Shown here in pieces: positions 3,122 through 55,212 of a stretch of 64,000 bases of DNA (position 1 is the stretch's first letter; each line of letters begins with the position of its first letter). Both the position numbers and the translations under genes were made by a program. The notes under the pieces were generated by a model. It ran no database searches. It was not told the DNA's origin and saw only the letters and a program-made list of their open reading frames with translations. The stretch comes from Bacteroidota bacterium (GTDB lineage: Bacteria > Bacteroidota > Rhodothermia > Rhodothermales > Bin80): assembly GCA_026708685.1 (NCBI GenBank), contig JAPOUL010000027.1, positions 1,208 through 65,207 of the forward strand, read 5' to 3'.

Positions 3122-3910
3122 ATGAAAGGAAAAAAATCTAATACAATTTCTACTTACAATGAAAAGCTTTCTGGTAGAGATTTTTATAGTCAACTATATT
3201 CTGATTCTATAGAAAAAGAGGCAGAATGGCTCAAACGCCGATCCTACCAAACAGCAGATTCGATCTGTGCCTTACTTGAGCGTAATGATCTTACGCCTTC
3301 TAAAATTTTAGAGATAGGTTGCGGAACGGGTGCAGTGATTGCTGAATTGCAACGACGTGGAATAGCTGATTCCTATTATGCGATTGATTATTCCAGCGAA
3401 GCCATTGAGTATGTGCATTCCACCCTTCCTGATGTACACGCTGTGACAGGGGATGTTGTTGAAAGTGCTGAATTATTTGAAGGACAAATTTTTGATTTAG
3501 TTATTTGTGCTCATGTTTTGGAACACCTTGAGGAACCCAAACAATTCTTGAAATCTCTTCGTGGGCTCACTTATCTAAATTTTCTCGCAGAAGTTCCCCT
3601 TGAAAACCTGTTTTTTGGTAAAATCAAATCGCTTTTTCAGGATAGGGGGAATCATCCTGCCGGACATGTTCAGTTTTTTGATCAAAATAGCTTCCGAAAC
3701 ATATTGATTGACGCTGGACTCAATATCATGGACCAAAATTTATATGCACCAGTACTGGATAAGGATACATTGAAGTTCAGATATGGGAATGAAAGCAGAT
3801 TGTACTATCTCTTTAAAATGTGTAGCGAGCATTATGGTCCAAGGTATTTAGGAGCACCATGGATTGAATATTACCATGCACATATGAGTGTACTTTGTGG
3901 AGGAACCTGA
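3122..3910 (+). CDS. Class I SAM-dependent methyltransferase
   Basis: This 262-aa protein has the Rossmann methyltransferase motif I EIGCGTG at residues 64-70, a motif II-like acidic strand end (YYAIDYS) and a motif IV-like segment DLVICAHVLEHLEEP, typical of the Methyltransf_11/23 clan. The C-terminal part (EVPLENL, DRGNHPAGHVQFF) is characteristic of methyltransferases found in surface-glycan and natural-product loci. Two glycosyltransferases lie downstream on the opposite strand, which fits a role in cell-surface polysaccharide modification, but the acceptor cannot be read from the sequence. A close paralogue, interrupted by an in-frame stop, lies at 17989-18777 on the minus strand. The start is an ATG with an A-rich leader and no Shine-Dalgarno sequence. 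Confidence 0.82.
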   Translation: MKGKKSNTISTYNEKLSGRDFYSQLYSDSIEKEAEWLKRRSYQTADSICALLERNDLTPSKILEIGCGTGAVIAELQRRGIADSYYAIDYSSEAIEYVHSTLPDVHAVTGDVVESAELFEGQIFDLVICAHVLEHLEEPKQFLKSLRGLTYLNFLAEVPLENLFFGKIKSLFQDRGNHPAGHVQFFDQNSFRNILIDAGLNIMDQNLYAPVLDKDTLKFRYGNESRLYYLFKMCSEHYGPRYLGAPWIEYYHAHMSVLCGGT

Positions 3911-8061: not shown

Positions 8062-8218
8062 ATGAATTGATTATAATTAGAATAATTCATTCCAGTTATC
8101 TAATGTATCATTTTAAAATTGGTTCTAAGTGGCGATTTTCAATTACAATTACTTCAATGATGGAGTAAACTTATGATTGGGAGACCATTAGAGAGTATTT
8201 TGGGAACAAATAATGATT

Positions 8219-8263
8219 CAAATAGTACTAACATTTTCAAATTCTAAAAGTTAGTACTATTTG
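8219..8263 (+). promoter_or_regulatory. Perfect 14-bp inverted repeat abutting a start codon
   Basis: CAAATAGTACTAAC at 8219-8232 is repeated exactly in inverted orientation (GTTAGTACTATTTG) at 8250-8263, with a 17-nt A/T-rich spacer. The second arm ends on the base before the ATG at 8264. As DNA it could be an operator for a dimeric regulator. As RNA it would form a strong hairpin covering the translation initiation region. It is not a terminator for the divergent lipoprotein gene, because that gene is transcribed away from it. The repeat is directly visible; its role is inferred. Confidence 0.6.
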
Positions 8264-9550
8264 ATGAAAATTTATCAAAAAACACATGTTAGGCGTTTAG
8301 TTCAGTTCGCATCAAATCCTAGAGATATGCGAATTATTGCTGTGATGGGTCCGCGTCAGATTGGAAAAACAACAATTGCTCATCAAGCCATGTCATTATT
8401 TGAAGAATTGGGTATCAATTGCAAGTATATTTCATTTGATGATCCATCTACCCTGAAGTCAGAGATCCCAAGTGATTCACCAGTATTTGATACTGCAGCA
8501 AGCGTCAAACTTACACAGCCAAATATTCTTGTTGATATTTGGGAGAATGCACGCAAGGAATCTTTAAAATCGAAGAATGGATTCATATTGTTTTTAGATG
8601 AAATACAACTTGTCCCACAATGGTCAAATTATGTCAAGGGTCTCTGGGACAGAGATCGCAGAGAGAATACACCACTCCGAATTGTCATTTTAGGATCTTC
8701 AGTATGGCAAATGCTCGTGGGTCGCAATGAAAGCCTAGTAGGACGTTTTCGACAGTTGTTAGTTTCTCATTGGTCGCTCAGGGAAATGATGGATCAGTTT
8801 GGCTTAACGGTGGATGAATATATATTTTACGGAGGCTATCCAGGACCGTTTACACAAAGTTTAAAGGGTGTAAAAGATGAAAAATTTTGGCGGACATATA
8901 TTCTGGAATCGATTGTGAACCCTGTGATCCAGCGGGATATTATGTCGCTCAGGCAGATTCGAAAACCAGCATTAATGCGCCAGTTAGTCAATATGGTCCC
9001 CCAATATTCGGCACAAATCATGGAATACAATAAATTAATCGGTATGCTTCAAGACAAAGGCAATACAACGACAATAAAAAACTATTTAGATTTACTTGGA
9101 GATGCTTTTCTTGTATCGACGCTTTCCCGGTATACACCCTCACAATATTTAGGCATTGCATCACATCCCAAATTTAATGTACTCAACACAGCACTGATGA
9201 CAGCTCCCTCAGGGAATACGTTTATTGATGCAAGAGATAATCCATCTCAGTGGGGAAGGATCGTTGAAAGTGCAGTGGGTGCACATTTGATCAATACCAG
9301 ACAAGATCAAGCCACTCGGGTTCATTACTGGCGAGATGATCATGGACATGAGGTTGATTTTATAGTTGCAAGAGGGCCCCATCTTCTTGGTATAGAGGTC
9401 AAGAGTGGCTCCAAATCCTCATACCGTGGATTAAATGCTTTTAAGGAGAGATTTCCTAATGCTAAAACAGTCTTGATAGGTGGGGGAGGAATCTCAATCA
9501 GCGAATTTTTATCGTTCACAACCGATCAGTGGATTGAGCAGGTAGGCTAA
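8264..9550 (+). CDS. AAA ATPase with DUF4143 (AAA_14/DUF4143 family)
   Basis: This 428-aa protein has Walker A GPRQIGKTT at residues 29-37 and Walker B ILFLDE at 108-113. The DUF4143 middle region (VIQRDIMSLRQI, then a winged-helix-like stretch around TTIKNYLDLLGDAFLVSTL) and the C-terminal restriction-nuclease-like fold (VDFIV … GIEVKSG, D about 364, E/K about 378-380) follow in the usual order and length. An in-frame TTG precedes the chosen ATG but lies inside the inverted repeat. The family is widespread; biochemical roles are poorly known and several members sit in defence or toxin-antitoxin settings. The stop codon overlaps the start of the STAND protein by one base (TAATG), so the two are co-translated and probably act together. 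Confidence 0.85.
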   Translation: MKIYQKTHVRRLVQFASNPRDMRIIAVMGPRQIGKTTIAHQAMSLFEELGINCKYISFDDPSTLKSEIPSDSPVFDTAASVKLTQPNILVDIWENARKESLKSKNGFILFLDEIQLVPQWSNYVKGLWDRDRRENTPLRIVILGSSVWQMLVGRNESLVGRFRQLLVSHWSLREMMDQFGLTVDEYIFYGGYPGPFTQSLKGVKDEKFWRTYILESIVNPVIQRDIMSLRQIRKPALMRQLVNMVPQYSAQIMEYNKLIGMLQDKGNTTTIKNYLDLLGDAFLVSTLSRYTPSQYLGIASHPKFNVLNTALMTAPSGNTFIDARDNPSQWGRIVESAVGAHLINTRQDQATRVHYWRDDHGHEVDFIVARGPHLLGIEVKSGSKSSYRGLNAFKERFPNAKTVLIGGGGISISEFLSFTTDQWIEQVG

Positions 9551-12500
9551 TGATCGTTCCACGTACAGTCCGATTGATAGATCCCATTGAAGATCACCGC
9601 TACTGGCAAGATCCATTGTCACTTCGTGATTTTGATTCGGATCATGGGTATATCCTGTTAGGCGATCGAGGGATGGGGAAAACTACTGAAGTTCAGCAAG
9701 CCGCACTGAGGTGTGATACTTCACATGTGATGACCGCTCAACAATTTTTACGATGGGATCTCTCTGTATGCCCAGATTGGGAAATCATCTTCATTGATGG
9801 TGTTGATGAGGTCCGAATAGGGGGAGGAGACCCAAGAATTGTGATGGATCAACTGATTGCAAAACTCAAAGCACTGGGCACTACCAAGTTTCGCATCACA
9901 TGTCAAAACGGCAGTTGGATCAGGAATGTGGATCTGTCAGAATTTTCCAAAATTTTAGAGGAGGGATTGACAGTATCAATACTCCAACTCAATCCATTAC
10001 GTTCAAGTGATATACAACAAATTCTTACCCATCGATCGATCAATGTAGATGTATTTATTCAGAAAGCCACTGAAAAGGGTATCAATACCTTTCTGGGGAA
10101 TCCCCATTTCCTACACAGTTTGATAGACTCCATCAGCGAAATGGGTTGGTCCGACAGTTTCAGCTCATTGTACGAGAATGGATGCCGAGCACTCTTTCGT
10201 AAACCTAGGTCAGATTATCAAGATTTTTCACCCGAAGAGGTTTTAGTTGAATCTGGCAGGATCTTCGCGTATTTGTTGATTGCAAATAAGTTTGGAGCAG
10301 GTGAGGATACAAAATTCATTGAATGCTGTAATTTTCTTGAAACAGGGTCTTCCAATATTCAGCCTATTCATCAAGCGATCATGTCATATTTTTTTCACAA
10401 TGAGGATTCGTTAAATGTGCAAATTCATCAATTTCAAATTGAGTTTCTAGCAGCTCGCTACTTGGATCAGAAAATTCGAGACGGACTGAGCATTCGGCGA
10501 GTTCTGGGTCTCTTATATGGTTTCAATGGATCTCCATGTTTAGATCTTCAAGGCTTAGCAGGTTGGTTGGCAACACTAAACCATAGAGAGAGAGAGATTC
10601 TCATTACTGAGGACCCACTATCACTCTTATGCTACGGAAATATTGGAGATTTTAGGCCAGAAGAGCGATTGTACCTACTTGATAAACTTGAAAGGACTAT
10701 CAGCAGATGTTCTGATGGGCCCTTTTCTATGAACCTTCATGGACTCGCAACAGATGAAGGTCTATCACGGATGAGAACATTGGTTAGTTCATCTCATCCA
10801 TCCAAAGTCAATCAAACTCTGATTCTGTTGTTGTTACGCGGGATTTCTCAGAAGTACTCAAGCACTACAATGAAAATATCCGACATAGAGGTTCTCAGAG
10901 TGATCATCCGAGATCATCGCTGGGTTCCCAAGCTTCGCTGTGAGGCACTTCTTACGATAACCAGATTGATAGATCATGAGAAGGGTGTCAGGGTATTTCT
11001 AAGGGAATTAATTACTGATTTGAAGGAAGAACGAATTATAGATGAAACCAATGATTTACTAGGGACAGTTTTTTATTTGATCTATCCTTATGATTTGTAT
11101 CCCCATGAACTCTTTGATGATTTAATCACTCGATCAAAAGTTAATCATCCAAGTATCTATGTCAACTTTTTTAAAACCCTACCAAATCATTCAGATCCTA
11201 CGCAACTCTGCCAATTACTGACATATCTCTCAGATCGTTCTTCAGAGATTATTCCACAGCTAGTTCATCATCATTTATCAATGATTGTGATGCAGATTCT
11301 AGCACAATGCTTGAAATTATGTGGAAACCAAGCGAGTATCCATGAACTCTTTTCTTGGTTTAAACTCGTCAAATTTGATCAAGACCTATCGCATCTGGTT
11401 TTGATCCATCCCACCGATCAGCAATGGAATGGGGTTGATCGTGAGTCAAGTAATTTGATTCATTCATGGCTAAGTAAACACGAGAAAATCCAGCGAGAGC
11501 TTATTGAGTATGGATTGAATGAACAGAAACACAGGATTGGGCAACTGTTACTTGACAAATATATTGGACTCAAGTTTGTCGGAGTCAATGCCCAAGAGGA
11601 GTTTCGATTATGGTGCGTTCATCGCGCAGTACAACTTTGGGATTCAAATCCAAGTGTAGCAAGAGAGCTAGCTTCTTGGTCATTGAGACCCCGAAAGGGG
11701 TGGGGACCTCCACTTTCAACTGATGTGATCATCAAGATTTTACCCCGTATATCTGATGAGCTCATTCAACGAAATCACCTGTCACCTTTCATTCTTCATC
11801 CTGCTGAAGAGAGGCAAGTGGACGATACAAAGAGACAGGAAATACTTGATCAGGTACGGAAGCAAAGAATTGAATTATCAGTGGGGCGATGCACACCAAT
11901 GATTCTTGATCAGTTAGCACGTGTTTACTATGATCTATCAGAACATAAATCAGATTCCATCTGGACTGGCTTACAGTCCTTCTTAGAGGGAGATCAGGAT
12001 TTAGTTGAAGCGACCCTCGCTGGATTTTGTAGCTTGTTAGAACGAGAGGACTTACCAGACTTAGATCAAATTATGCAGCTCTTTGAAAACGGGCAGAGAT
12101 CTTATTATGCACTACCGTTTTTGGCCGCTATGATGGAGATGCAGAAGACCTGTAACGTATTCATCACTCTAACTGAAAAAGCCCAAAAAAGAGCATTGGG
12201 GTTTTATTTCATCACGGGTTCATCTCATATTAACGAACGATCAACTAAGGAATCTGGACTTAATGATGATGATCCATCCTGGTTCATATATGCTATGCAA
12301 AACGATCCGAAGATCGTTGCGGATTCACTGGTTTCTGTACACAACGCATGTATTCGTTCAAAGCACCCCCCCGTTGCTCATCTTTACAAGTTTACATTTC
12401 AAAAGCAGTGGGAACACATTGTATCTTACGCAATGCCTCGGATGTTTACTGTATTTCCAACTCGCTGCAATGCGACACAACTTGAATCATTATCTCTCAT

Positions 12501-13653
12501 TCTATGGTGTTGTATTCTTCATAAAGATGCATTTGGTAAATTTTTGCTAATAATCATTACACAACGATTGAACCGTAAGCAGATGGACTTAGGGCAGCAA
12601 GCTTTATGGCTGAGTGCGGGGTTAATGCTCAATCAACGTGGCTATGGTCCACGACTGATCAGTTTTCTTTCAAAGGGAGAGTATGCACGGACTCGTCATG
12701 TTGTTGACTTCCTTGGACATGATGCTACTGTTGAACTCCCGATGGATTACTACGGCGATTGGACTTGTGCTGAAATTGCATTGATGGTGAAAGAATTTGG
12801 CAGACGAATTACTCCTTTAATAATAGAAAACCAACCAGAATCTTTTACAGATGATCAGAAAGGTATCCATAAATTTCAAGGTTTATTTCAACGATGGATC
12901 CAAGAATTGGAAAAACGAATCAGCCAAGAGGCGATTGATACTTTGGAACAACTCATCGTCGATGATGATTTGGCTGATTGGAAATTTCATCTAGCTAATG
13001 CTCAGCAGTTACAAATTCGTCACCAGAGTGCTCTGTATCGTTCCGATTTAACTTTCGAACAAATTCAGAATGTACTCACAGACGGGATGCCTGCAAGTCC
13101 AGTAGATCTTTTTTGCATTATCGTAGAAGCTTTTGAAACATTCGTTGAACGTATGAGCGACAATCATACTGCCGTTGATTGGCATCAATTATGGGAATGG
13201 CCTAGAAATCCAGATCAGCTTCCACATCCTAAATCTCATAGAGAGTGTTGTGATATACTCACATCATATTTGAAGACATATCTTAAGAAGTATCAAGTTT
13301 ATGTGTGCCATAAAAATAAGGATACCCGATCCATACATGATGGAGATATTCGTATTTCGTTCAGATCTGATTTTGAAATACCAATATCTGTAAATAAAAA
13401 TTCTGACATAACACTTTGGAAGAAAATGAGCAACCAGACTTTATTGAAACATAGTCTTAACCCCAAGTCATATGGTTATCGGCTTCATGTGGTTTTTTGG
13501 TTAGGGGCTGGTCCTGATTATATGAAAGCAATTTCACCTGATGGAAATCTACCGAGAGGGCCAGAGCACCTCAGGGATTTACTTCAACAAAACTGGAAAA
13601 ATCACCTAAATAATAATGCGAAGGTTATCGTGATTGACGTATCTCAGAGGTAA
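9550..13653 (+). CDS. Large NACHT/STAND-like NTPase with degenerate nuclease-like C-terminus
   Basis: This 1367-aa protein has Walker A GDRGMGKTT at residues 38-46 and Walker B IIFIDGVDE at 79-87. The segment IHQFQIEFLAARYL near residue 300 matches the closing helix of many NACHT domains. A ~900-residue helical region with HEAT-like Leu/His periodicity follows, probably a sensor. The last ~110 residues resemble a PD-(D/E)XK-type effector (DGD at 1264-1266, then PISVNK at 1278-1283, then a YGYRLHVVFWLG strand), but the usual E-x-K pair is replaced by S and N, so catalysis is doubtful. This architecture is seen in bacterial antiphage STAND proteins. Here it is coupled to a DUF4143 ATPase. Function as a defence system is inference from domain type only. 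Confidence 0.78.
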   Translation: MIVPRTVRLIDPIEDHRYWQDPLSLRDFDSDHGYILLGDRGMGKTTEVQQAALRCDTSHVMTAQQFLRWDLSVCPDWEIIFIDGVDEVRIGGGDPRIVMDQLIAKLKALGTTKFRITCQNGSWIRNVDLSEFSKILEEGLTVSILQLNPLRSSDIQQILTHRSINVDVFIQKATEKGINTFLGNPHFLHSLIDSISEMGWSDSFSSLYENGCRALFRKPRSDYQDFSPEEVLVESGRIFAYLLIANKFGAGEDTKFIECCNFLETGSSNIQPIHQAIMSYFFHNEDSLNVQIHQFQIEFLAARYLDQKIRDGLSIRRVLGLLYGFNGSPCLDLQGLAGWLATLNHREREILITEDPLSLLCYGNIGDFRPEERLYLLDKLERTISRCSDGPFSMNLHGLATDEGLSRMRTLVSSSHPSKVNQTLILLLLRGISQKYSSTTMKISDIEVLRVIIRDHRWVPKLRCEALLTITRLIDHEKGVRVFLRELITDLKEERIIDETNDLLGTVFYLIYPYDLYPHELFDDLITRSKVNHPSIYVNFFKTLPNHSDPTQLCQLLTYLSDRSSEIIPQLVHHHLSMIVMQILAQCLKLCGNQASIHELFSWFKLVKFDQDLSHLVLIHPTDQQWNGVDRESSNLIHSWLSKHEKIQRELIEYGLNEQKHRIGQLLLDKYIGLKFVGVNAQEEFRLWCVHRAVQLWDSNPSVARELASWSLRPRKGWGPPLSTDVIIKILPRISDELIQRNHLSPFILHPAEERQVDDTKRQEILDQVRKQRIELSVGRCTPMILDQLARVYYDLSEHKSDSIWTGLQSFLEGDQDLVEATLAGFCSLLEREDLPDLDQIMQLFENGQRSYYALPFLAAMMEMQKTCNVFITLTEKAQKRALGFYFITGSSHINERSTKESGLNDDDPSWFIYAMQNDPKIVADSLVSVHNACIRSKHPPVAHLYKFTFQKQWEHIVSYAMPRMFTVFPTRCNATQLESLSLILWCCILHKDAFGKFLLIIITQRLNRKQMDLGQQALWLSAGLMLNQRGYGPRLISFLSKGEYARTRHVVDFLGHDATVELPMDYYGDWTCAEIALMVKEFGRRITPLIIENQPESFTDDQKGIHKFQGLFQRWIQELEKRISQEAIDTLEQLIVDDDLADWKFHLANAQQLQIRHQSALYRSDLTFEQIQNVLTDGMPASPVDLFCIIVEAFETFVERMSDNHTAVDWHQLWEWPRNPDQLPHPKSHRECCDILTSYLKTYLKKYQVYVCHKNKDTRSIHDGDIRISFRSDFEIPISVNKNSDITLWKKMSNQTLLKHSLNPKSYGYRLHVVFWLGAGPDYMKAISPDGNLPRGPEHLRDLLQQNWKNHLNNNAKVIVIDVSQR

Positions 13654-17988: not shown

Positions 17989-18777
17989 TTATCGTGATTT
18001 CTTATGGCAGAGTACACTCATATGGGCATGATAAAATTTAACCCAAAAGGAACCCAAAGTGCGAGGGAGATAATGTTCAGTACACATTTTCAGAAGCACC
18101 TTTAAATGATTGACTCCTGCATAAGCAAACTTGATCGTATCCAAACTTGATGATGGTGCATAAACATAATGATCATCTACTTCAAGCCCGCTCTCCGAAA
18201 GGAATCCGAAAAAATCAGTTTTGTTGAAGAACTGAACATGGCCAGCTGGGTGGTTACCACGATCCTGTAACAGTCCCTTCATTTTTCCAAAGAATAAATT
18301 TTCGAGGGGAACTTCAGCAATGAAATGGTTTCAATTGACATCAGTCAGGGATTTCAAAAAAATCTGTGGGTACTCAAGATGTTCTATCACATGGCTACAA
18401 ATGAGTAAGTCAAATTTTGAGTTTGGAAACAACTTTGAGCAATCAGATATATCTCCCGCTTTGGCATTTACATGGGGAAGCGTTTCTTTTACATGCTGAA
18501 TGGCATCTTCAGAATAATCCAAAGCATGAAAGGATTCTCCAATCTTGCGTCGTGTTAGTTCAGCAGTCACTGCACCTGTCCCACAACCAATATCCAATAT
18601 GGATTTTGGCTTCAAATCTTTTTGGTCAAGGAGGAGCGAAATTGCATTGGCCTTTTGTTCTGCACCTCTACGAAGCCATTCTGCTTCACGATCTAAATGG
18701 TTTGAGTAGAAAGAATCATATTGATCTCGTCCACTCAGTCCAGAATTTAGTTGCGAAAAGTCATCACGCTTAGCCAT
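17989..18777 (-). pseudogene. Methyltransferase paralogue interrupted by one in-frame TGA
   Basis: Read on the minus strand, the frame gives a protein closely related to the methyltransferase at 3122 (shared LSGRD, EREAEWL-like, DIGCGTGAV, AEVPLENLFFGK, DRGNHPAGHVQFF, YHAHMSVLC). A single TGA at 18331-18333 splits it into a ~148-residue SAM-binding half and a ~115-residue tail, both in the same frame. The stop falls where the intact paralogue has Tyr, about six residues before AEVPLEN. No other defect is visible, so inactivation is recent, or the base is a sequencing error. The likely start is ATG 18777 (MAKRDDF); ATG 18804 is also in frame. Readthrough is possible but nothing supports it. 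Confidence 0.8.
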
Positions 18778-18804
18778 GGTTACAATGCGATGATTGAAAG
18801 TCAA

Positions 18805-19322: not shown

Positions 19323-19814
19323 ATGATTCCTACTCCTTTATCAATATTTGATGCAGCCTCTTACATTTTAGAGAATTCTCGCTGGACAATTACTCAGTTG
19401 GAGCTACAGAAGTTACTGTATTTGGCTCAGATGATTCATTTGGGGCAACATGGATGTCCTATTTTGTTCGCCCGTTTTGAAGCTTGGGAGTATGGACCCA
19501 TTAATCAGGCACTTTTTGATGCAACAATCAAGTATGGTACTGATCCTTTGCGCAGTTCTAATATACCAGGCGACCCCAAAAATATTGTTGCAGAAACTCA
19601 TAAAGAGGTACTGGATTATGTTACTGATGAATTGTCTGAATTAACAGCTACCGAGTTAGTTTCCACGACACAACAAGAATATGGTGCATGGAAAAAAACA
19701 TTCAATCCTCTTTATCGAAACTTGTCCATTCCTGATCGACTCATCAAGGAGGAATATGAAGAAAAATTAGTTCGTGCAAATCAATCTAAACCAGAGATTG
19801 TATCCGCATCATGA
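19323..19814 (+). CDS. Panacea (SocA/DUF4065) domain protein, probable antitoxin
   Basis: This 163-aa protein carries the Panacea/DUF4065 domain over most of its length: the helical opening FDAASYILENS, LQKLLYLAQMIHLG, then the signature FEAWEYGPINQAL, and a helical tail. The family (SocA, GepA) is an established promiscuous antitoxin domain that neutralises unrelated toxin types by direct binding. The partner here is the small membrane protein 12 bp downstream, so this is probably the antitoxin of a two-gene toxin-antitoxin operon. Antitoxin function for this copy is inference from family and gene order. Confidence 0.85.
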   Translation: MIPTPLSIFDAASYILENSRWTITQLELQKLLYLAQMIHLGQHGCPILFARFEAWEYGPINQALFDATIKYGTDPLRSSNIPGDPKNIVAETHKEVLDYVTDELSELTATELVSTTQQEYGAWKKTFNPLYRNLSIPDRLIKEEYEEKLVRANQSKPEIVSAS

Positions 19815-19826
19815 GTAATCCATTGA

Positions 19827-20186
19827 ATGATTTCAAAAACCGGATTAGTGATGAATTTTCTAAACATGATCTCTTCGGTTCAAGAAAATATCAAATCGTT
19901 CAACGAATATCTGGAGCAACAGGCTCGATATCAAGCAGCAAAAACAAAAGCACTTGAGGACAGAAACAAACATCGGTACATGTATGCCAACAGATTTATG
20001 AAAATTTCATACATAAGCTTGATCTTTGGGGCGTTGATGATAATAGCTGATGGAATTAAGATGACAGGATTTGATCTGAGCAATTCTGTTATTATTGCAT
20101 TGTTGGGTACGGCCCTGTCAACCGTGTTTGCACCTACATATCTTCTGGCAAAATATCTTTTTAAGCACGATGAAGATATTTATTGA
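19827..20186 (+). CDS. Small two-helix membrane protein, candidate toxin of Panacea pair
   Basis: This 119-aa protein has a charged, heptad-like N-terminal region (residues ~15-50, rich in Gln, Lys, Glu) followed by two hydrophobic segments (ISLIFGALMIIADGI and IIALLGTALSTVFAPTYLL) with a short loop and a charged tail. No enzyme motif is seen. Panacea antitoxins are known to pair with small membrane-depolarising toxins, which fits this layout. The start is uncertain: ATG 19827 gives the listed form, ATG 19851 (MNFLNM) a shorter one. A 48-residue ORF in another frame begins at ATG 19811, overlapping the antitoxin stop as ATGA. A frameshift at the N-terminus is therefore possible. Confidence 0.65.
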   Translation: MISKTGLVMNFLNMISSVQENIKSFNEYLEQQARYQAAKTKALEDRNKHRYMYANRFMKISYISLIFGALMIIADGIKMTGFDLSNSVIIALLGTALSTVFAPTYLLAKYLFKHDEDIY

Positions 20187-33328: not shown

Positions 33329-33340
33329 TTATTGTTAATA

Positions 33341-35269
33341 ATGACCAAAAACCTTCTTGATGATTTAACAGAATTACTGGCAACTGAGGAAGAATTCGTT
33401 GCTGATGGGGTTATTCTGAGGAATAAGGTAGTTGAAGCGGCTCTTGCGATGAATTGGCAGTTTTTAGAGTTGCTTATGAGATCTCCGAGAATCAAGACTC
33501 ACTTCTTCATTGAAGTTTCCGGGATATTGGTTTTTGATAAGGTGAAATTTCGTGATTTTATCTCCCATAAAAGTTTTTTACCTGATAGTTACACTGCTTT
33601 CAGAAATCGAATTGGACTAACAGATGAACATGATAATCATTTGAGTTGTTCACAAAATGTCGTGCTTACATGGGCTCATAAAGATTGTGTCCTTGAGGGC
33701 GGAATGACGAAGGAAGATCGTGGAAGAGATGAGGTATTTTGGAACACCATACTCTCACCAGATCAAATCACGCGTTTATATGAACCGAAAGTACTGACTG
33801 GATGGGAGCGTTGGAGTTATTCAGAAGAGAATGGAGTAGTTCGCCAATCTCTACCCGAAGTAAATGAGGATGATAATTTATTGATCAAGGGGAATAACCT
33901 GCTAGCACTTCATTCATTAACGGCCCGATATGCTGGCAAGGTAAAATTGATTTATATTGATCCACCGTATAATACTGGTAATGACGGATTTAAATACAAT
34001 GACAGTTTCAATCATTGTTCATGGTTGACATTTATGCAAAACCGGTTGGAAGTAGCAAAAATTCTACTTTCAAGAGACGGAATCATTGTTGTGCAAATCA
34101 ATGATAAAGAGCAGGCCTATCTAAAAGTATTAATGGATGAAATTTATGACAAAAACTATAGGGCTACCGTTGCCGTAAAGATGTCGCATCTTAGTGGTGT
34201 TAAAATGAGTCATAAACACAGAAAAATTCCAAAGACAATAGAATATTTACATATTTATTCATCTTTCCGAGGTCCAATTACAATCAGACCACAATATGTT
34301 GAGACATCTTGGGAAGATGCTTTCAATCGTTATCAATCATACATTGTCAAGCCTGATGATGACCCGGATGATTTCAAAAAATGGGTGGCAATTCCATTAC
34401 GGGAAGCTATCAAGAAGGCTAAAATAATACCATCTGACATAGAAGCAAAGCAAAGGTTCCTAATGTCCAATTCCGAATGCATATTTCGGACAGCCGTTAA
34501 TAGAAGTAAACAATATCCCAAGGAACCGAAGAATTCTTTCCTTAAAATAAACAATGTTTTCGTGTATAATGGGGAGGAAGTTGAAATTGCATCAAACAAA
34601 ATTCGGGAAATTAATGGAGTTCCTAAGCCAGTGTCGATAGTTGGTGATATATGGACAGATATAGGTATTAATAATGTATTTCAGGAAGGTGGTAAAGACA
34701 TAGTTTTAAGATTTGGAAAAAAGCCAGAAATGCTTTTAGAGCGGATTATCAGGATGTTTACTGATGAGGGTGATTTGGTATTAGATTTTTTTGCAGGCAC
34801 AGGTACCACCGCTGCCGTTGCTCATAAGTTGAGACGAAGATGGATAGCTATTGAACAACTTGATGATCATATAGACCAGATTCTTCGTAGAATGAAAGGT
34901 GTAATCAATGGAGATCAGACCGGAATTTCTAAGTCTGCATCTTGGAAGTTCGGAGGAGCTTTTTTCTACACAGAACTTGCGGAATTCAACCTGGCTATTT
35001 CTAAACGAATTGAATTAGCAACCAATTATGATGAGCTGGTTTCCATTAAGAATGAAATGAAAAACACTGGCTTTCTACGCTATAATGTAGATTTGGACTC
35101 TTTTGATCTAGAAGAATTAAAGAATCTTTCTCTGGAGGAATCAAAAAATGTTCTGAGAGATTGTTTGGATGCCAACCATCTGTATATAAATCTTAACTCA
35201 ATAGAAGATGAAAAATTTCAGATTTCACATGAAGATATTCGGATGAATCAATCATTTTATTCGACTTAA
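33341..35269 (+). CDS. mod: Type III restriction-modification system methyltransferase (Mod)
   Basis: From ATG 33341 this gives 642 aa. Beta-class amino-methyltransferase order is seen: motif IV IYIDPPYNTG (Asp about 207), then the variable target-recognition region, then motif I DFFAGTGTTAAV near residue 482, and RRWIAIEQ. It transfers a methyl group to adenine in an asymmetric site and is required for both modification and specificity of the type III complex. The restriction subunit begins one base after its stop. The frame is intact. An in-frame TTG at 33332 is less likely as a start. Confidence 0.92.
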   Translation: MTKNLLDDLTELLATEEEFVADGVILRNKVVEAALAMNWQFLELLMRSPRIKTHFFIEVSGILVFDKVKFRDFISHKSFLPDSYTAFRNRIGLTDEHDNHLSCSQNVVLTWAHKDCVLEGGMTKEDRGRDEVFWNTILSPDQITRLYEPKVLTGWERWSYSEENGVVRQSLPEVNEDDNLLIKGNNLLALHSLTARYAGKVKLIYIDPPYNTGNDGFKYNDSFNHCSWLTFMQNRLEVAKILLSRDGIIVVQINDKEQAYLKVLMDEIYDKNYRATVAVKMSHLSGVKMSHKHRKIPKTIEYLHIYSSFRGPITIRPQYVETSWEDAFNRYQSYIVKPDDDPDDFKKWVAIPLREAIKKAKIIPSDIEAKQRFLMSNSECIFRTAVNRSKQYPKEPKNSFLKINNVFVYNGEEVEIASNKIREINGVPKPVSIVGDIWTDIGINNVFQEGGKDIVLRFGKKPEMLLERIIRMFTDEGDLVLDFFAGTGTTAAVAHKLRRRWIAIEQLDDHIDQILRRMKGVINGDQTGISKSASWKFGGAFFYTELAEFNLAISKRIELATNYDELVSIKNEMKNTGFLRYNVDLDSFDLEELKNLSLEESKNVLRDCLDANHLYINLNSIEDEKFQISHEDIRMNQSFYST

Positions 35270-35270
35270 A

Positions 35271-37460
35271 ATGAGTCAGAGTCTTAGTCAAGAATTTGAC
35301 ACACTGTCTAAATTTGGCATTCTGAAGGATTATCTACCGATTGAAGTAACTTGCAATCTTTCTAAGCAGATTAAGTTGCGCCCTTATCAAGTGCAGGCAT
35401 TAAATCGATGGCTCTACTACATTGATGAATATGATGGGAGGCCATCAAGGTCTCATTTGTTGTTTCATATGGCAACTGGAAGTGGTAAAACTGTGTTGAT
35501 GGCCGCACTCATCTTAAACCTATACATACGAGGCTACCGAAATTTCTTGTTTTTTGTAAACTCCTCTCAGATCATTGAAAAAACCAGAGATAATTTTCTA
35601 AATCAGGTATCTCCCAAGCACTTATTCAATAATCCTATACGGATTGATGGCAAACCTGTAAACGTTCAATCGGTTGATACTTTTCAAGCTGTATCAAGCG
35701 ATGCAATCAATATTCACTTTACAACTATTCAAGGGCTTCATATTAGAATGAATACCCCAAAAGAAGATTCCATTACGATGGAAGACTTTCGTGAGTATAA
35801 AATTGTGATGATTTCAGATGAGGCACATCACCTAAATGCTGAGACGAAGAAAAATCGGACACAGACTGAAATCAAGCAAATCAACAGCTGGGAACATACG
35901 GTTACGAATATCTTTTGTCAGCATTCTGAAAATCTTCTATTGGAATTCACTGCAACTGCTGATCTGAATCACCCCGCAATCAGGGAAAAATACCATGATA
36001 AGATTCTGTATGATTATCAGTTGAAAGATTTCAGACAAGATGGTTACTCCAAAGATATTGAACTTAGGCAAGCTGACCTGCCTCCTTTGGATAGAATGAT
36101 ACAGGCAATGGTTCTGAGTCAATATAGGCGTAAAGTAGCTGAGGCTCATGGAATTCATTGTAAGCCAGTGATTTTGATGAAGTCAAAAACGATAGCCGAG
36201 TCTTCTGAGAATGAACGACTATTTACTTCCAAAGTCAAAAAATTGTCTGGTACAGATCTTTTGGAAATGCGAAATTCACTGTCGAGTGAAGATAAAACTC
36301 TCGTCCAAGCTTTCAAATATATCATTGATGAACATGGAGTAGACTATGATGAGTTTGCCCTTGAGTTACAGGGGGATTTCGGAGATGGTAAGATTGTTAA
36401 TGTAAACAAACCTAAGGATCTTGAAGAACTTCAGATTGACTTAAATAATCTTGAAGATCATTCAAATGACCTCAGAGTCATTTTTGCAGTGAATAAGCTA
36501 GATGAAGGTTGGGATGTTTTGAATCTTTTTGATATCGTCCGTTTGTATAATACCCGAGATAGCAAGGGGGATAAGATAGGTAGAACCACCATGTCTGAAG
36601 CTCAGTTAATCGGTCGAGGTGCTCGATATTTTCCTTTCATAGATCCATCTCAACCTGAGGCAATCCCAGAGATTCGCAAGTATGATAGAGATTTGAAGCA
36701 CCCACTGAGGATACTGGAGGAACTATACTATCATTGTTCGCACAACCCAAGATATATTGACGAAATCAAGAAAGCTTTGATAAAAATTGGAATGGAAGAT
36801 GACAACACACGCGAAGTGAATCTACGCTTGAAAGAAAGTTTCAAGAAATCACAATTTTATCAAATCGGATATGTTTGGATTAATAAGAGAGTAAAAAACT
36901 TAAATGAAGGTGTCACTAAACTTGACGATTATAAGATTGATAACTACTTCACATACTCTATACTAAACACTGGACATGTTGAGGAAACATCTGCTTTTTC
37001 AGATGAGATACCCGAAAGTAAAACGTTCATTGAGACACCAGTTTCCAGAGAACTACAACTTTCGGAGTTCAATAGGCATATTCTCAATTTTGCGATGGAC
37101 TCTAACGAATTTTTCCATTTTTCGAATGTAAAAAAATATTTTCCGCATATTACCAGCATATCTGAATTTCAGACTTCAAAATCATGCCTTGGTTGTGTGA
37201 AGGTTCAGGTTCGTGGATTAAAAAGGGATCTCGATAATATGAGTCCTAAAGAGAAATTGAAAATCGTACGGTATATTCTTTCCCAGATTGAGGAGAATAT
37301 AAAGCGTGAAAGTGTAGAATTTGTTGGAACCACCGAATTTACATCCCTCAAAGTCCGAGAGTGTTTCACTGATAAGAAAATTAAAATTCGTACTGAGGGA
37401 GAAGCTGGGTTAAGTTGGGAAAAAAGAATATTGATGGGCTTAACTTATTCAATCCCATAG
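35271..37460 (+). CDS. res: Type III restriction subunit (Res), helicase part, truncated by frameshift
   Basis: This 729-aa frame has the SF2 helicase/translocase domain: PYQVQALNRW (Q-like motif), Walker A ATGSGKT at residues 68-74, motif II SDEAHH near 184, FTATAD (motif III) and QLIGRGAR (motif VI). It ends early at 37458-37460, after an A6 run near 37420. The neighbouring frame from there encodes the missing C-terminal nuclease (see 37415-37894). As read, Res would have motor function but no cleavage domain. One extra A at the A6 run would restore a single ~870-aa Res. The Mod subunit upstream is intact. Confidence 0.85.
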   Translation: MSQSLSQEFDTLSKFGILKDYLPIEVTCNLSKQIKLRPYQVQALNRWLYYIDEYDGRPSRSHLLFHMATGSGKTVLMAALILNLYIRGYRNFLFFVNSSQIIEKTRDNFLNQVSPKHLFNNPIRIDGKPVNVQSVDTFQAVSSDAINIHFTTIQGLHIRMNTPKEDSITMEDFREYKIVMISDEAHHLNAETKKNRTQTEIKQINSWEHTVTNIFCQHSENLLLEFTATADLNHPAIREKYHDKILYDYQLKDFRQDGYSKDIELRQADLPPLDRMIQAMVLSQYRRKVAEAHGIHCKPVILMKSKTIAESSENERLFTSKVKKLSGTDLLEMRNSLSSEDKTLVQAFKYIIDEHGVDYDEFALELQGDFGDGKIVNVNKPKDLEELQIDLNNLEDHSNDLRVIFAVNKLDEGWDVLNLFDIVRLYNTRDSKGDKIGRTTMSEAQLIGRGARYFPFIDPSQPEAIPEIRKYDRDLKHPLRILEELYYHCSHNPRYIDEIKKALIKIGMEDDNTREVNLRLKESFKKSQFYQIGYVWINKRVKNLNEGVTKLDDYKIDNYFTYSILNTGHVEETSAFSDEIPESKTFIETPVSRELQLSEFNRHILNFAMDSNEFFHFSNVKKYFPHITSISEFQTSKSCLGCVKVQVRGLKRDLDNMSPKEKLKIVRYILSQIEENIKRESVEFVGTTEFTSLKVRECFTDKKIKIRTEGEAGLSWEKRILMGLTYSIP

Positions 37461-41375: not shown

Positions 41376-42989
41376 TTAATTCTGATTCATTCTGAAGTGG
41401 TCTGCTATGATATCGAGCTTTTGAATCACTTCAGGGTGAATCTCCTCTGCATGCATGTGATAAGCAATGTCGCAGAAATCTGTATCTTGGATGTTGATTT
41501 TGGCGGCCTCACAAACTTCACGTAACACCATCTTTCCTTTTTTGCCATCAAAATAATTCCTCTCCAACGGCCGCAAAAAGAATGCTGGAGGAAAATATTC
41601 CCTCATATATTCGGTTGTGCATTCAACGGATTGGTGATCTCCTATGGAACCCATCCAGCGAAGAATTGCCGAAGGATGGATTAAGTAGTTTTCTATTTCA
41701 TAACGTTTCCAAATCAGAAGCTTCATCCCATCGGGTTGAAGTTGATCTTCTACTTCAGGGCCTTTGTTGTTTCTATCCTGAAGTTGAACCCCTTTGATGT
41801 GGTGTGCATGGATACGAACTGCCTTAAAATGGCGAACGGATCTCCAACTGTCTTCTGCAGTGAATTTGCAGAATGGCGATTCCAAAAATGTGTATAGTGG
41901 GTGATTCAGTGCATATGCCCAGGTTCTAAGAATTTTCAGATCTGTTTTGCCTTCCAAATATAGGACGCATCCAAACTGTTGGGCCATGATGATGTCCAAA
42001 TTGTTGAGATAGAGAGATTCAATCACCGTCTGTTCATCTGAAATTTTATTGAGACCCGCAGAGAGAACCCGGAGATCATGCAGGTTTGTCTCCTTGATCA
42101 GTCTCTCAGAATGCGTAGCAATGATCAATTGTTGCCCGTGAAGGCGAGATCGTTTTTTTAGATCTCGGTACAGTTTTTCCTGAAGAAATATATGTAGGTG
42201 AGCATCTAACTCGTCAATAAGTATGGTTGAAGATTCTTTCAGTAAGATAATTGCATAGATCATCAGGACCTGTAAGAAACCAGATGATGCACCCGATAAG
42301 TCCATCTCAAATTCTCCAACATCGTCCTGAAAACCAGCATAAACCGTCTGTACTCCAGCAATCGGCATCGTCAGCTGATATAGAAAGAGATCTTGGATAA
42401 TGCTCTGGAGTTCACTCCACTTATCGGGGCTACGACTAACCTCATAGAGCAGATTACGAACCACTGTTCCCGCATGTCCTGTAGCAATCCGTGTAGGGAT
42501 GACGCTTGATCTGTATGGCGGCTCATCCCGATCAACTCCTGACATGGGGGTGATCAAGGAAGTGATGAAAGGGTTACGGATATACTTTTTAAGCGTGGAT
42601 TCAGGCACTTCTTTCATGGGACGTATGTCCACGGATGTTCGCCCCCTGTAAACAAATTCAAATCCTATCGTCTCACCGTTGATTCGGAGTTGAATAGATG
42701 CTGGAGAATCAATGCATTGTTGATACCATAGATTCTTCCAGTCTTTGAGGACAATGGAGGATATTTCGATATAGCTGATCTCAATACTTGGATAGTGGCC
42801 GTCATCATCAAGGTCAAAAGGATCGCTTTTTTCTCCCCAAAGTGACATGACTTCAGACCATAAAGCAATGGTCTGGAGGAGAGTGGTTTTACCACAGTTG
42901 TTGGGGCCAACAATGACTACATGCTCATCAAGTGGAACATGAATTGACTTGAAGCGCTTGATATTTTGAATGTCTATCCGCTCAATCAT
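41376..42989 (-). CDS. ABC-type ATPase with C-terminal Toprim-like domain (OLD/PARIS-like)
   Basis: This 537-aa protein starts with an SMC/RecF-like ATPase: Walker A GPNNCGKTT at residues 28-36, signature LSGASSG at 231-237, Walker B STILIDELDAH at 254-264 and the switch His in ATHSE. The C-terminal third looks like a Toprim/DUF4435 nuclease domain: LYLEGKTD (Glu346), LQDRNN near 405 and WKRYEIENYL at about 427. OLD family nucleases and PARIS AriA-AriB proteins combine the same two parts, and both act in phage defence. The acidic pair of the Toprim site is only partly preserved (D-R-N), so activity is uncertain. The gene is solitary. Confidence 0.75.
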   Translation of the reverse strand: MIERIDIQNIKRFKSIHVPLDEHVVIVGPNNCGKTTLLQTIALWSEVMSLWGEKSDPFDLDDDGHYPSIEISYIEISSIVLKDWKNLWYQQCIDSPASIQLRINGETIGFEFVYRGRTSVDIRPMKEVPESTLKKYIRNPFITSLITPMSGVDRDEPPYRSSVIPTRIATGHAGTVVRNLLYEVSRSPDKWSELQSIIQDLFLYQLTMPIAGVQTVYAGFQDDVGEFEMDLSGASSGFLQVLMIYAIILLKESSTILIDELDAHLHIFLQEKLYRDLKKRSRLHGQQLIIATHSERLIKETNLHDLRVLSAGLNKISDEQTVIESLYLNNLDIIMAQQFGCVLYLEGKTDLKILRTWAYALNHPLYTFLESPFCKFTAEDSWRSVRHFKAVRIHAHHIKGVQLQDRNNKGPEVEDQLQPDGMKLLIWKRYEIENYLIHPSAILRWMGSIGDHQSVECTTEYMREYFPPAFFLRPLERNYFDGKKGKMVLREVCEAAKINIQDTDFCDIAYHMHAEEIHPEVIQKLDIIADHFRMNQN

Positions 42990-47161: not shown

Positions 47162-47179
47162 TTTCATGTGTCTTATTCC

Positions 47180-48883
47180 ATGTCACATTCATCCGTCAGT
47201 GATACACAAATCAGGAGTTGTTTCCCTACACTAAAACAAAAAGTGTATGGTCAGCCATTGGTTTATTTGGATAGTGCGGCATCTTCTCTAAAACCAGAAT
47301 GTGTCATTGACTGTTTGTCCAACTACTATGCCAATGAGCACAGCAATGTACACCGTGGCGTTCATTATTTGAGTCAGCGTGCCACTGAGCGGTACGAAGC
47401 CGCTCGTCAACGTGTCGCTCAATTCATCGGAGCATCAAGCGATCGATCCATCGTCTTTACTCGGGGAACGACAGAATCCATCAACCTAGTTGCATCCACC
47501 TTCGGATCTACATATATTCAGTCGGGTGATGAGATCCTTACGACAGTGATGGAGCATCACTCCAATCTAGTTCCATGGCAACAATTAGCACAACAGCAAG
47601 GTGCACAACTCCGAGTGTTGGATGTTTCCATGAAAGGGACCATTAGCGTGGATGCATTAGTGCGACAGATGAACAAGAGGACGCGTCTCTTGGCAATTGG
47701 GCATGTTTCCAATAGTCTGGGCACTTTACATCCCGTAGAAGAAATCATTCAGGAAGCTCACAAAAGAGATATTGTGGTTTTACTGGATGGAGCGCAAGGA
47801 CTTCCACATCTTCCATTAGATATGCACAAGTTAGATTGTGATTTCTATTGTGCGAGTAGCCATAAGGCCTATGGCCCCACCGGTGTTGGATTTTTGTATG
47901 GAAAAGAAGAGATTCTGGAAGATCTACCACCATGGCATGGTGGAGGAGATATGATTGATCAGGTTCATCGTATGTATTCCACTTGGGCAGAAGTTCCACA
48001 TAAGTTTGAGGCGGGTACACCAAATATTGCTGGAATCATTGGGATGTCGGCTGCTATTGATTTTATGGATAGTATAGGGATGGACGTTCTTCGAGAAAAA
48101 GAGCAAATCCTCTTAGAGTATGCTCATCAGCAAGCCAAGACAATCTGTGATCTTACCATCGTTGGTTCAGCATCTGAAAAAGTTGGTGTGTTGAGTTTTA
48201 CATTGGAAGGACATCATCCTTATGATATCGGTTATGCTTTGGATCAAGCAGGAATTGCTGTACGAACAGGGCATCACTGTACTATGCCCTTGATGGATTA
48301 CTTTGGAATTCCCGGCACAATTCGTGCTTCCTTTGGAGCGTACAACACGAAAGATGATATTGATGCACTCGTATCACGTTTAAAAGAGATTGTCACAACA
48401 TCCTCAACCAAACGAAATACTATTGGAACCAATGGTCAAACCGTTTCGCATGTAGCTGATCATCCGACGATCGAAATTCGTAAAGCATCCTTACTGGAGG
48501 ATCTTGATCTTTTTGATGATGCAGATGATCGCCGTGAGTATATTATTGAACTTGGTGAGAATCTTGAATCAATTGATTCATCTTTGAAGACGGAGACGAA
48601 TCGGATTCACGGATGTCTAGCCATGGTGTGGCTCCACAGTACGGTTCATGACGGACGTATTTATTTTAAGGCAGACAGTGATGCTTTGATTACTCGTGGA
48701 ATGATTGCATTGTTGATTCAACTGATGGATGGCCAATTACCAAGAGATATTCTAAATACCGATCTTTTTGCATTGATTGATGAGATTGGATTACCTGAAT
48801 TGATTACCGCTCGCCGTAAAAATGGACTGAATCGGATGATTGAACGCATTCAAAAAGAAGCATCCTTAAGTGAGATTTCATGA
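47180..48883 (+). CDS. sufS: Cysteine desulfurase SufS fused to SufE
   Basis: From ATG 47180 this gives 567 aa. Residues ~1-410 are a type II cysteine desulfurase: PLP-binding lysine in SSHKAYGPTG and catalytic Cys in RTGHHCTMP (about residue 367). A ~45-residue linker leads to a SufE domain (~455-567): DLFDDADDRREYIIELGE, then the sulfur-accepting Cys in HGCLAMVWL (about residue 479). The desulfurase takes sulfur from cysteine as a persulfide and SufE relays it to SufBCD; the fusion joins donor and acceptor in one chain. An upstream GTG at 47168 is possible. It is co-transcribed with sufBCD and overlaps sufT by ATGA. Confidence 0.95.
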   Translation: MSHSSVSDTQIRSCFPTLKQKVYGQPLVYLDSAASSLKPECVIDCLSNYYANEHSNVHRGVHYLSQRATERYEAARQRVAQFIGASSDRSIVFTRGTTESINLVASTFGSTYIQSGDEILTTVMEHHSNLVPWQQLAQQQGAQLRVLDVSMKGTISVDALVRQMNKRTRLLAIGHVSNSLGTLHPVEEIIQEAHKRDIVVLLDGAQGLPHLPLDMHKLDCDFYCASSHKAYGPTGVGFLYGKEEILEDLPPWHGGGDMIDQVHRMYSTWAEVPHKFEAGTPNIAGIIGMSAAIDFMDSIGMDVLREKEQILLEYAHQQAKTICDLTIVGSASEKVGVLSFTLEGHHPYDIGYALDQAGIAVRTGHHCTMPLMDYFGIPGTIRASFGAYNTKDDIDALVSRLKEIVTTSSTKRNTIGTNGQTVSHVADHPTIEIRKASLLEDLDLFDDADDRREYIIELGENLESIDSSLKTETNRIHGCLAMVWLHSTVHDGRIYFKADSDALITRGMIALLIQLMDGQLPRDILNTDLFALIDEIGLPELITARRKNGLNRMIERIQKEASLSEIS

Positions 48884-53403: not shown

Positions 53404-55212
53404 TTAATGGCGATTAAGGATGCTTTTATACCAGATTTTGATCCTTTCTGCCATCAATTTACGGCGCATAGCCAAAAAATCATCATAATCAGGGATTGAT
53501 CCGTCAAGAATAGTAAGTGGAATACAGTTCTGTTTGAAATTTTCTTTAAGTTCATCCAGTTTTATAATCCCGCCATAACGGATTTTTCCACCAGTTACCT
53601 GCTCAAGAAGCTGGGGAAAGTAATTCTGAGGCGGAGTATCCTTAATAGCTATATTAATTTCACTTTGAGTGATGGCATAGTTAGCTATCTGGTTATAGCG
53701 ACCTCTGGATAAGCCTTTTTTATTGATTAAATAATTGCGAGGGAAGATATGATGACGATCTCCGTGATTGAGCAGTAACTCTCTTACATGGATTTCAGTT
53801 GATAGGAATCCCTTGTCATTCAAGAATATCTGTGCTGCTTGAAAAGCAATAAAATAAGGACTCGTAGAACTAGAAGTCTCCATAAGTTGCGGAAGCATCC
53901 CCGTCCAGAAACTATCAGGGAGTTCGTTTTCAATGATAGATTCAGCATAGCGGTGTAATCCTATGGTAGCTATCTGTCGAATATCATAATCAAACACTGT
54001 TTCAGGACTTCCAGAGTAACGTCTTGTGAGAATTGACATTGCATACCATCGTCGGATTAAGCTCTCAATTTCATACTTAGGAAGACCCTCCTCGCACCCC
54101 TGCAAGTACATAATAAATGCAAAATTCACAGCATTCTGATTCCTGATAAGGTTGGAAGTTAGAAATCCTGAAGACCGTAGAATCATGGTAAGACATTCAA
54201 AATTTGTTTTATTCATGAAGTTAAATACCCCTTTCTTTAATTGTTCAAATGTGTTTTCTACAATTTCTTGTTCGTATTCCCGAGTTTGAAAGTTTCGACC
54301 AGAAAGAAGAGATACTAAATCTTGAAGCTTACCGCGTTTAAACTGAGAAGTGAAGGCCACTCTCAGCATGTCAGTATAATTAGGATCATATAGGTCATCT
54401 TTGACATTTTTAAGCCATGTCATTTTTTTCCAGTAAGTAGATCCTACAAAATCATGATCCTGCTCTAACGTTGAATAGGATTCAGGAGCAATTGCAAGAT
54501 GGCAGAAATAGTCAATTGCTTTACGTAAAACATTGCCTTGATTGCTTTCATTAGCTGCGATTTTTGACATAACAAAGTCTGCCTGTGATAGAGCGGTACC
54601 AGCTGAGTTCACTCGTATGAAAATCTCAGTAACGGTATCAATGTCAAGATTATCAGCTAAATTGATAATTCCGACTTGATGATTCACGATTTTGTCAACC
54701 TTTGTAATCACCTTACGGATGTCAGAACGAGCAACCCCTGGATTGTTGAAAACGTACCTTTCAACTATTTCAAACAGATCTGAGTCAGGGTCAAAAATTG
54801 TAGAGATGTCAGCAATCCATGTGCGATCTTTTTCAATGGCCGGATTACGAACCTCAAAACGTTCTTCAATAGGATTAAAGGCAATGCGAATTCTCACTTT
54901 CCGATAATTTTTGGTGAGTACTTGCTGCCCAAGTAGTGAGGTCATCAGAGCAGTCACTCTTTGTTGTCCATCAATCAAGATTCGCTTCCCACGAGAAAAT
55001 GTACCATCTTTCAGCTTGATTGAAGGATTTCGCCATGAAATCAGATAACCAATAGGATATCCATTATACAGGGAATCAAGTAGGTTTCGTACTTGGGTAG
55101 AATCCCAAACAAAGGGGCGCTGAATTTCAGGGATGGCAATTTCTTCCGACTTGACCCATGTTAGGATAGTATCGATGGGATGGGAAGCAACTGAATAGAG
55201 TGATGAGGTCAT
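53404..55212 (-). CDS. DUF262 domain protein (GmrSD-like)
   Basis: This 602-aa protein starts with the DUF262 block ([11 protein letters not shown] at residues 28-37 and the signature DGQQRVTAL at 81-89). A helical middle region follows, then the C-terminal HNH-like DUF1524-type motif HHIFP near residues 487-491 with [15 protein letters not shown] after it. The architecture matches fused GmrSD/BrxU type IV restriction enzymes, which attack modified phage DNA, but many DUF262 proteins have other or unknown roles. It is divergent in sequence and next to the FRG module, suggesting an accessory defence patch. The frame is intact. Confidence 0.8.

Follow-up and report, generated by a model that had tools for sequence, protein, structure and literature searches.

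A palindrome kept by compensatory change at the start codon of AAA_14-DUF4143 ATPase genes, a probable operator for self-repression of an ATPase-NACHT gene pair

The window, which is the whole 64-kb stretch of DNA that was analysed, contains an inverted repeat directly at the start of an AAA_14-DUF4143 ATPase gene. Judged from aligned homologues, this dyad is kept at the gene start by compensatory change, as an autoregulatory DNA operator requires. We consider the repeat to be probably a private DNA operator, and we infer that the encoded ATPase would bind it and repress both its own gene and the NACHT gene that follows.

The left arm of the repeat (CAAATAGTACTAAC) lies at 8219-8232 and the right arm (GTTAGTACTATTTG) at 8250-8263, with a 17-nt spacer between them. 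The right arm abuts the start codon of the ATPase, an ATG at 8264; the first start in the ORF listing is a TTG at 8261, and alignments of homologues begin at the ATG. The sequence-only reading had described 14-bp arms that end just before the ATG, and this was confirmed, with the repeat being somewhat larger. An inverted-repeat search gave perfect arms of 15 bp (8218-8232/8250-8264), counting the A of the ATG, and arms of 19 nt at 95% (8218-8236/8246-8264) with a gap of 9 nt, so that the proposed operator spans 8218-8264 with its outer 15 bp perfect. It is the sole inverted repeat in the window with arms of at least 12 and a spacer of at most 30. Twenty Markov shuffles pooled gave one repeat with arms of at least 14, corresponding to about 0.05 per window by chance. 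An exact second copy of the arm was not found in the 3.83-Mb genome, where only inexact matches were present. The assembly also gave no 16S gene when searched for one. Upstream of the dyad, a GGAAC box (8203-8207, plus strand) forms a piece of a conserved subfamily leader; in many subfamily members (loci L055-L087) it stands at a near-fixed distance from the dyad centre, either -38/-40 or -31/-32, and it was not enriched upstream of control genes. Promoter boxes (TTTG/TAnnTTTG and sigma-70) were not enriched in the control genes of this lineage either, and for this reason a promoter reading of these boxes was dropped.

The ATPase gene (8264-9550, plus strand) encodes a product with AAA_14 (PF13173) and DUF4143 (PF13635), each over its cut-off, and matches the PADLOC model PDC-S01 over its whole length (1.1e-131, residues 4-424). 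By these matches the protein belongs to the PDC-S01/AAA_14-DUF4143 family, a candidate for an antiphage role. The Walker motifs (GPRQIGKT and LDE) are intact, as is a PD-(D/E)XK signature in the C-terminal part (E363-V-D365 ... E378-V-K380; 9350-9403, plus strand). All of these are conserved in 118 relatives, in which the four key residues of the PD-(D/E)XK signature reach 93-97% conservation. PDC-S01 is described as a candidate defence system of PADLOC in which an ATPase is fused to a PD-(D/E)XK domain (Nucleic Acids Res 2026 gkag225, PMC12988326). The same paper ranks it fourth among prokaryotic defence systems by frequency, with 29,494 bacterial and 9,986 archaeal cases, and states that antiphage activity is unvalidated for most such candidates, PDC-S01 among them (PMC12988326). 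The number of ATPase matches in genomes of the same genus ranges from one to more than a dozen, and some of these copies are decayed. A search of genome contigs for relatives returned only two Thermoplasmata, and none were found in the viral contigs scanned. A PDB search with the family profile gave generic P-loop matches only, over the ATPase part, and a single-sequence structure model of the ATPase was unusable (pLDDT 40).

The neighbouring gene (9550-13653, plus strand), whose first base is also the final base of the ATPase stop codon, encodes a NACHT protein. Residues 25-1365 of this protein cover positions 18-1318 of the EruA model NF058535, which is nearly the whole model (1.3e-133). The equivalog cut-off is 1000 bits and the score, at 447.7 bits, falls far short of it; we therefore call the protein EruA-like and not EruA. 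Counting the window, 40 loci were compared, and 35 of them retain the ATPase-NACHT pair; the gap between the two genes is within about 100 nt in all pairs but one, the exception being the decayed locus L087 with a gap of 477 nt. Such tight pairing suggests that, in this lineage, the two genes form one system, which can be tested as a unit. The earlier suggestion that a repeat placed in this way marks a defence gene has held up, as the gene matches PDC-S01 and is followed by a gene resembling an antiphage NACHT gene.

We compared the corresponding upstream region in related genomes, which was the check proposed together with the operator idea. Among the 40 homologue loci fetched, the repeat was not missing: nearly all carry an imperfect palindrome that ends at or near the start codon, and homologues with 38-63% identity have a diverged dyad at the corresponding place. 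Palindrome-constrained motif finding recovered a common dyad with the consensus nnAAnGTACTnTAnTGAATAAATTTATTCAnTAnAGTACnTTnn, its centre mostly 20-27 bp before the start. In a 38-sequence alignment, which was built by searching for symmetry, so that its per-cent-paired figure is biased towards symmetry and compensatory counts are less affected, changes on both sides that preserve symmetry numbered 124 cells as compared to 68 in shuffles. The covariation score of the same alignment was 0.362 versus 0.187 in shuffles, with none of 500 shuffles reaching it, and slid controls gave 0.14-0.17. With the dyad upstream of nearly all close homologues and its palindrome kept by paired changes, the operator idea stands. 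Across the homologues the left arm is more conserved than the right, which suggests that part of the element may serve another role. A chance repeat has in its favour solely that the intergenic sequence is AT-rich; shuffles make such arms rare, the homologues show both conservation and covariation, and an origin by chance, to which we give practically no credence, is already refuted by the conservation among homologues.

Palindromes were also found in the wider family. We collected 118 DUF4143 ATPase genes from the phylum of the window, from plasmids (Thermus, Collinsella, Bacteroides, Moraxella and others), from one phage record and from two Thermoplasmata. Their start codons were set by a rule independent of dyads, as the ATG nearest to 26 residues before Walker A. 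A dyad score of at least 10 in the region -70..+3 was reached by 50.8% of the 118 genes. The corresponding fraction was 3.4% for the 350 control genes and 4.4% for shuffles (p ~1e-29). Strictly intergenic controls gave 4.6%, and other 73-bp windows around the family genes gave 0-9%. Clustering at 60% or 40% identity and keeping a single gene from each cluster left the dyad fraction unchanged. About half of the sample is below the threshold, and some members are clearly without a dyad. The type of element differs by subfamily (a GTACT type, a CCTTGCAA type and a GGTTGAAATT type). Distant DUF4143 genes have unrelated palindromes at the corresponding place, with CCTTGCAAA...TTTGCAAGG before the ATG in one case and GGTTGAAATT...AATTTTCAACC in another branch, and there is a Thermoplasmata example too. 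Very long palindromes precede the DUF4143 ATPase at L181 (29-bp arms with no spacer) and at L203, a Moraxella bovis plasmid gene (21 matching pairs).

The element appears to be restricted to genes of this family. In the window's own genome, a covariance model of the element hit six places at E<=10, five of them directly preceding AAA_14-DUF4143 genes. Downstream of the sixth, on contig C45 (L099, G000:C45), there is an 18-residue match to the N terminus of the family, and none of 1000 shuffles was as good; since the similarity stops after these 18 residues, either only a remnant of the gene is left or the end of the contig truncates it. In 30 genomes (that of the window and 29 relatives), each locus fetched for a hit at E<=1 carries, downstream of the hit, a gene of the family or what remains of one. 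At L110 the family match is limited to the first 65 residues, and at L112 the family gene is more than 200 bp from the element. Neither sites before other genes nor orphan elements lacking a gene or remnant were found among the fetched model hits of the 30 genomes, and on these hits there is no sign that the element would serve a wider regulon. At L087 (G000:C117) and L099 the ATPase(-NACHT) unit has decayed and yet retains the palindrome.

A symmetric element at a start codon could act as RNA, its arms pairing in the 5' leader of a transcript that begins upstream and hiding the start codon so that melting, a protein or a ligand gates translation. In favour of this, the element lies directly against the start codon, compensatory changes suit RNA as well as DNA, and the leader in the window folds at -18.8 kcal/mol (z -5.2). 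This alternative, which the sequence-only reading had also raised, is disfavoured. G-U pairs do not exceed the column expectation, and their number (37, as compared to 28 A-C mismatches, p 0.16) shows no excess. The region expected to form the loop is instead the conserved palindromic centre. A z below -2 was seen in only 17 of 39 subfamily elements, and several conserved ones never fold. Nothing reached the gathering score in an Rfam search, which below that score gave chance-level matches only. The lack of a G-U excess, the conserved palindromic centre and the many unstable folds make us favour a DNA site over an RNA hairpin, which we regard as rather unlikely.

If the palindrome is a DNA site, any dimeric repressor would equally give the dyad symmetry, and the operator could belong to a separate host regulator as a regulon site. 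Element identity between genomes climbs with protein identity, up to 0.57 where protein identity is at least 45%. Within a single genome, the elements of distant paralogues are unrelated (identity 0.44 as compared to a background of 0.42), although relatives in other genomes share theirs. The letters of the element follow the protein and not the genome. Such a pattern would be expected where every protein recognises an element of its own, but not where a single host regulator recognises all of them. Together with the absence of model hits before other genes, this makes a host regulator unlikely in our opinion. Part of the co-divergence comes from the gene and its leader having descended together, so that self-recognition is supported but not proven. 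Under yet another explanation the gene pair is mobile and the palindrome marks its left edge, or the palindrome is cut by the pair's own PD-(D/E)XK nuclease. The copy number differs widely among genomes of the same genus, decayed copies are present, the PD-(D/E)XK residues are kept and family members are found on plasmids, all of which would fit mobility. Against it, dyads show no enrichment over the 73 bp that follow the stop codon of the ATPase (6%, as compared to 51% at the start), and the model hits include no orphan elements; we find a mobile unit very unlikely.

For self-repression by the ATPase, a binding region can be suggested. Within the subfamily, residues 236-271 (8969-9076, plus strand) contain the best 20-residue windows for tracking the divergence of the element once overall divergence is allowed for, with a weak partial r of 0.30, uncorrected for phylogeny and window number. 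This stretch could perhaps be a helix-turn-helix that co-varies with the element. In the proposed mechanism, subunits of the ATPase (AAA+/HTH/PD-(D/E)XK) would bind the two arms of the double-stranded operator. Once bound, the ATPase would stop transcription where the ATPase-NACHT pair begins, and a potentially harmful defence-type pair would in this way be held at a low level. Titration or modification of the ATPase, or its engagement elsewhere, could lift this block, with phage infection as one example of when that might happen. The pair may thus be induced on infection, and it may have antiphage activity. A more far-reaching version, which we think improbable, is that the palindrome is itself the sensing site: a phage would disturb the ATPase-DNA complex, derepressing the pair and at the same time freeing the ATPase to act with its NACHT partner. 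If this were true, the three roles of sensor, repressor and effector would fall to a single protein, and this in a candidate antiviral family that is very common.

Several other genes in the window were also noted. A type III restriction-modification pair spans 33332-37460, with a methylase at 33332-35269 (PADLOC MTase_III, 1.3e-162) and a restriction subunit at 35271-37460 (REase_III, 1.9e-117). A GmrSD_N-domain protein resembling HEC-05 is encoded at 53404-55212 (minus strand), and an ABC-type ATPase at 41376-42989 (minus strand) resembles AriA/NsnB and other defence ATPases with weak to moderate scores. The cysteine-desulfurase-like product of 47168-48883 (plus strand) matches SspA/DndA models and could just as well be an IscS-type enzyme with a housekeeping role. 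Two similar methyltransferase genes are present at 3122-3910 and 17989-18804, and the second looks broken, being split into two ORFs on the minus strand (17989-18282 and 18331-18804). A gene with a SocA/Panacea domain (19323-19814) is followed by a small ORF ending in hydrophobic stretches (19827-20186), and the two are possibly a toxin-antitoxin pair of the Panacea type. The long ORF at 19-2658 has, from reading of its sequence alone, Calx-beta-like repeats and an autotransporter-like C terminus.

No prior account of the element was found in the literature searched, nor were EruA/HyoA and PF13635 named in it, and DUF4143 was named in a single paper; preprints and most subscription journals were outside its scope. 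For each protein, the dyad would give a short, defined DNA ligand, a candidate binding region and a reporter for the trigger of the system. The start-codon palindromes can also be used as a mark for start-codon annotation in this family.

In type II toxin-antitoxin systems, a harmful unit is kept at a low level by one of its own products, which binds a palindrome overlying the promoter of its gene. It is the antitoxin that binds in those systems (autoregulation is mentioned in PMC12255303), whereas in the present case we identified no antitoxin and propose the ATPase as the binder. The gene in the window is like PDC-S01 in its ATPase with a PD-(D/E)XK signature, its multiple copies and its patchy distribution. 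The descriptions of PDC-S01 searched here (PMC12988326) mention no palindrome, promoter, operator or inverted repeat and no obligate NACHT partner; here, in contrast, there is a dyad at the start codon and a NACHT gene regularly adjoins. Self-repressed defence operons are already known from RptR (PMC12255303), where, as proposed here, the promoter of a defence operon is repressed through palindromic sites by the first protein that the operon encodes. RptR itself is a dedicated repressor, a small homodimer acting on short 6-bp palindromes (PMC12255303), whereas the element described here is about 40-47 bp and its putative repressor is an ATPase with a nuclease-type domain.
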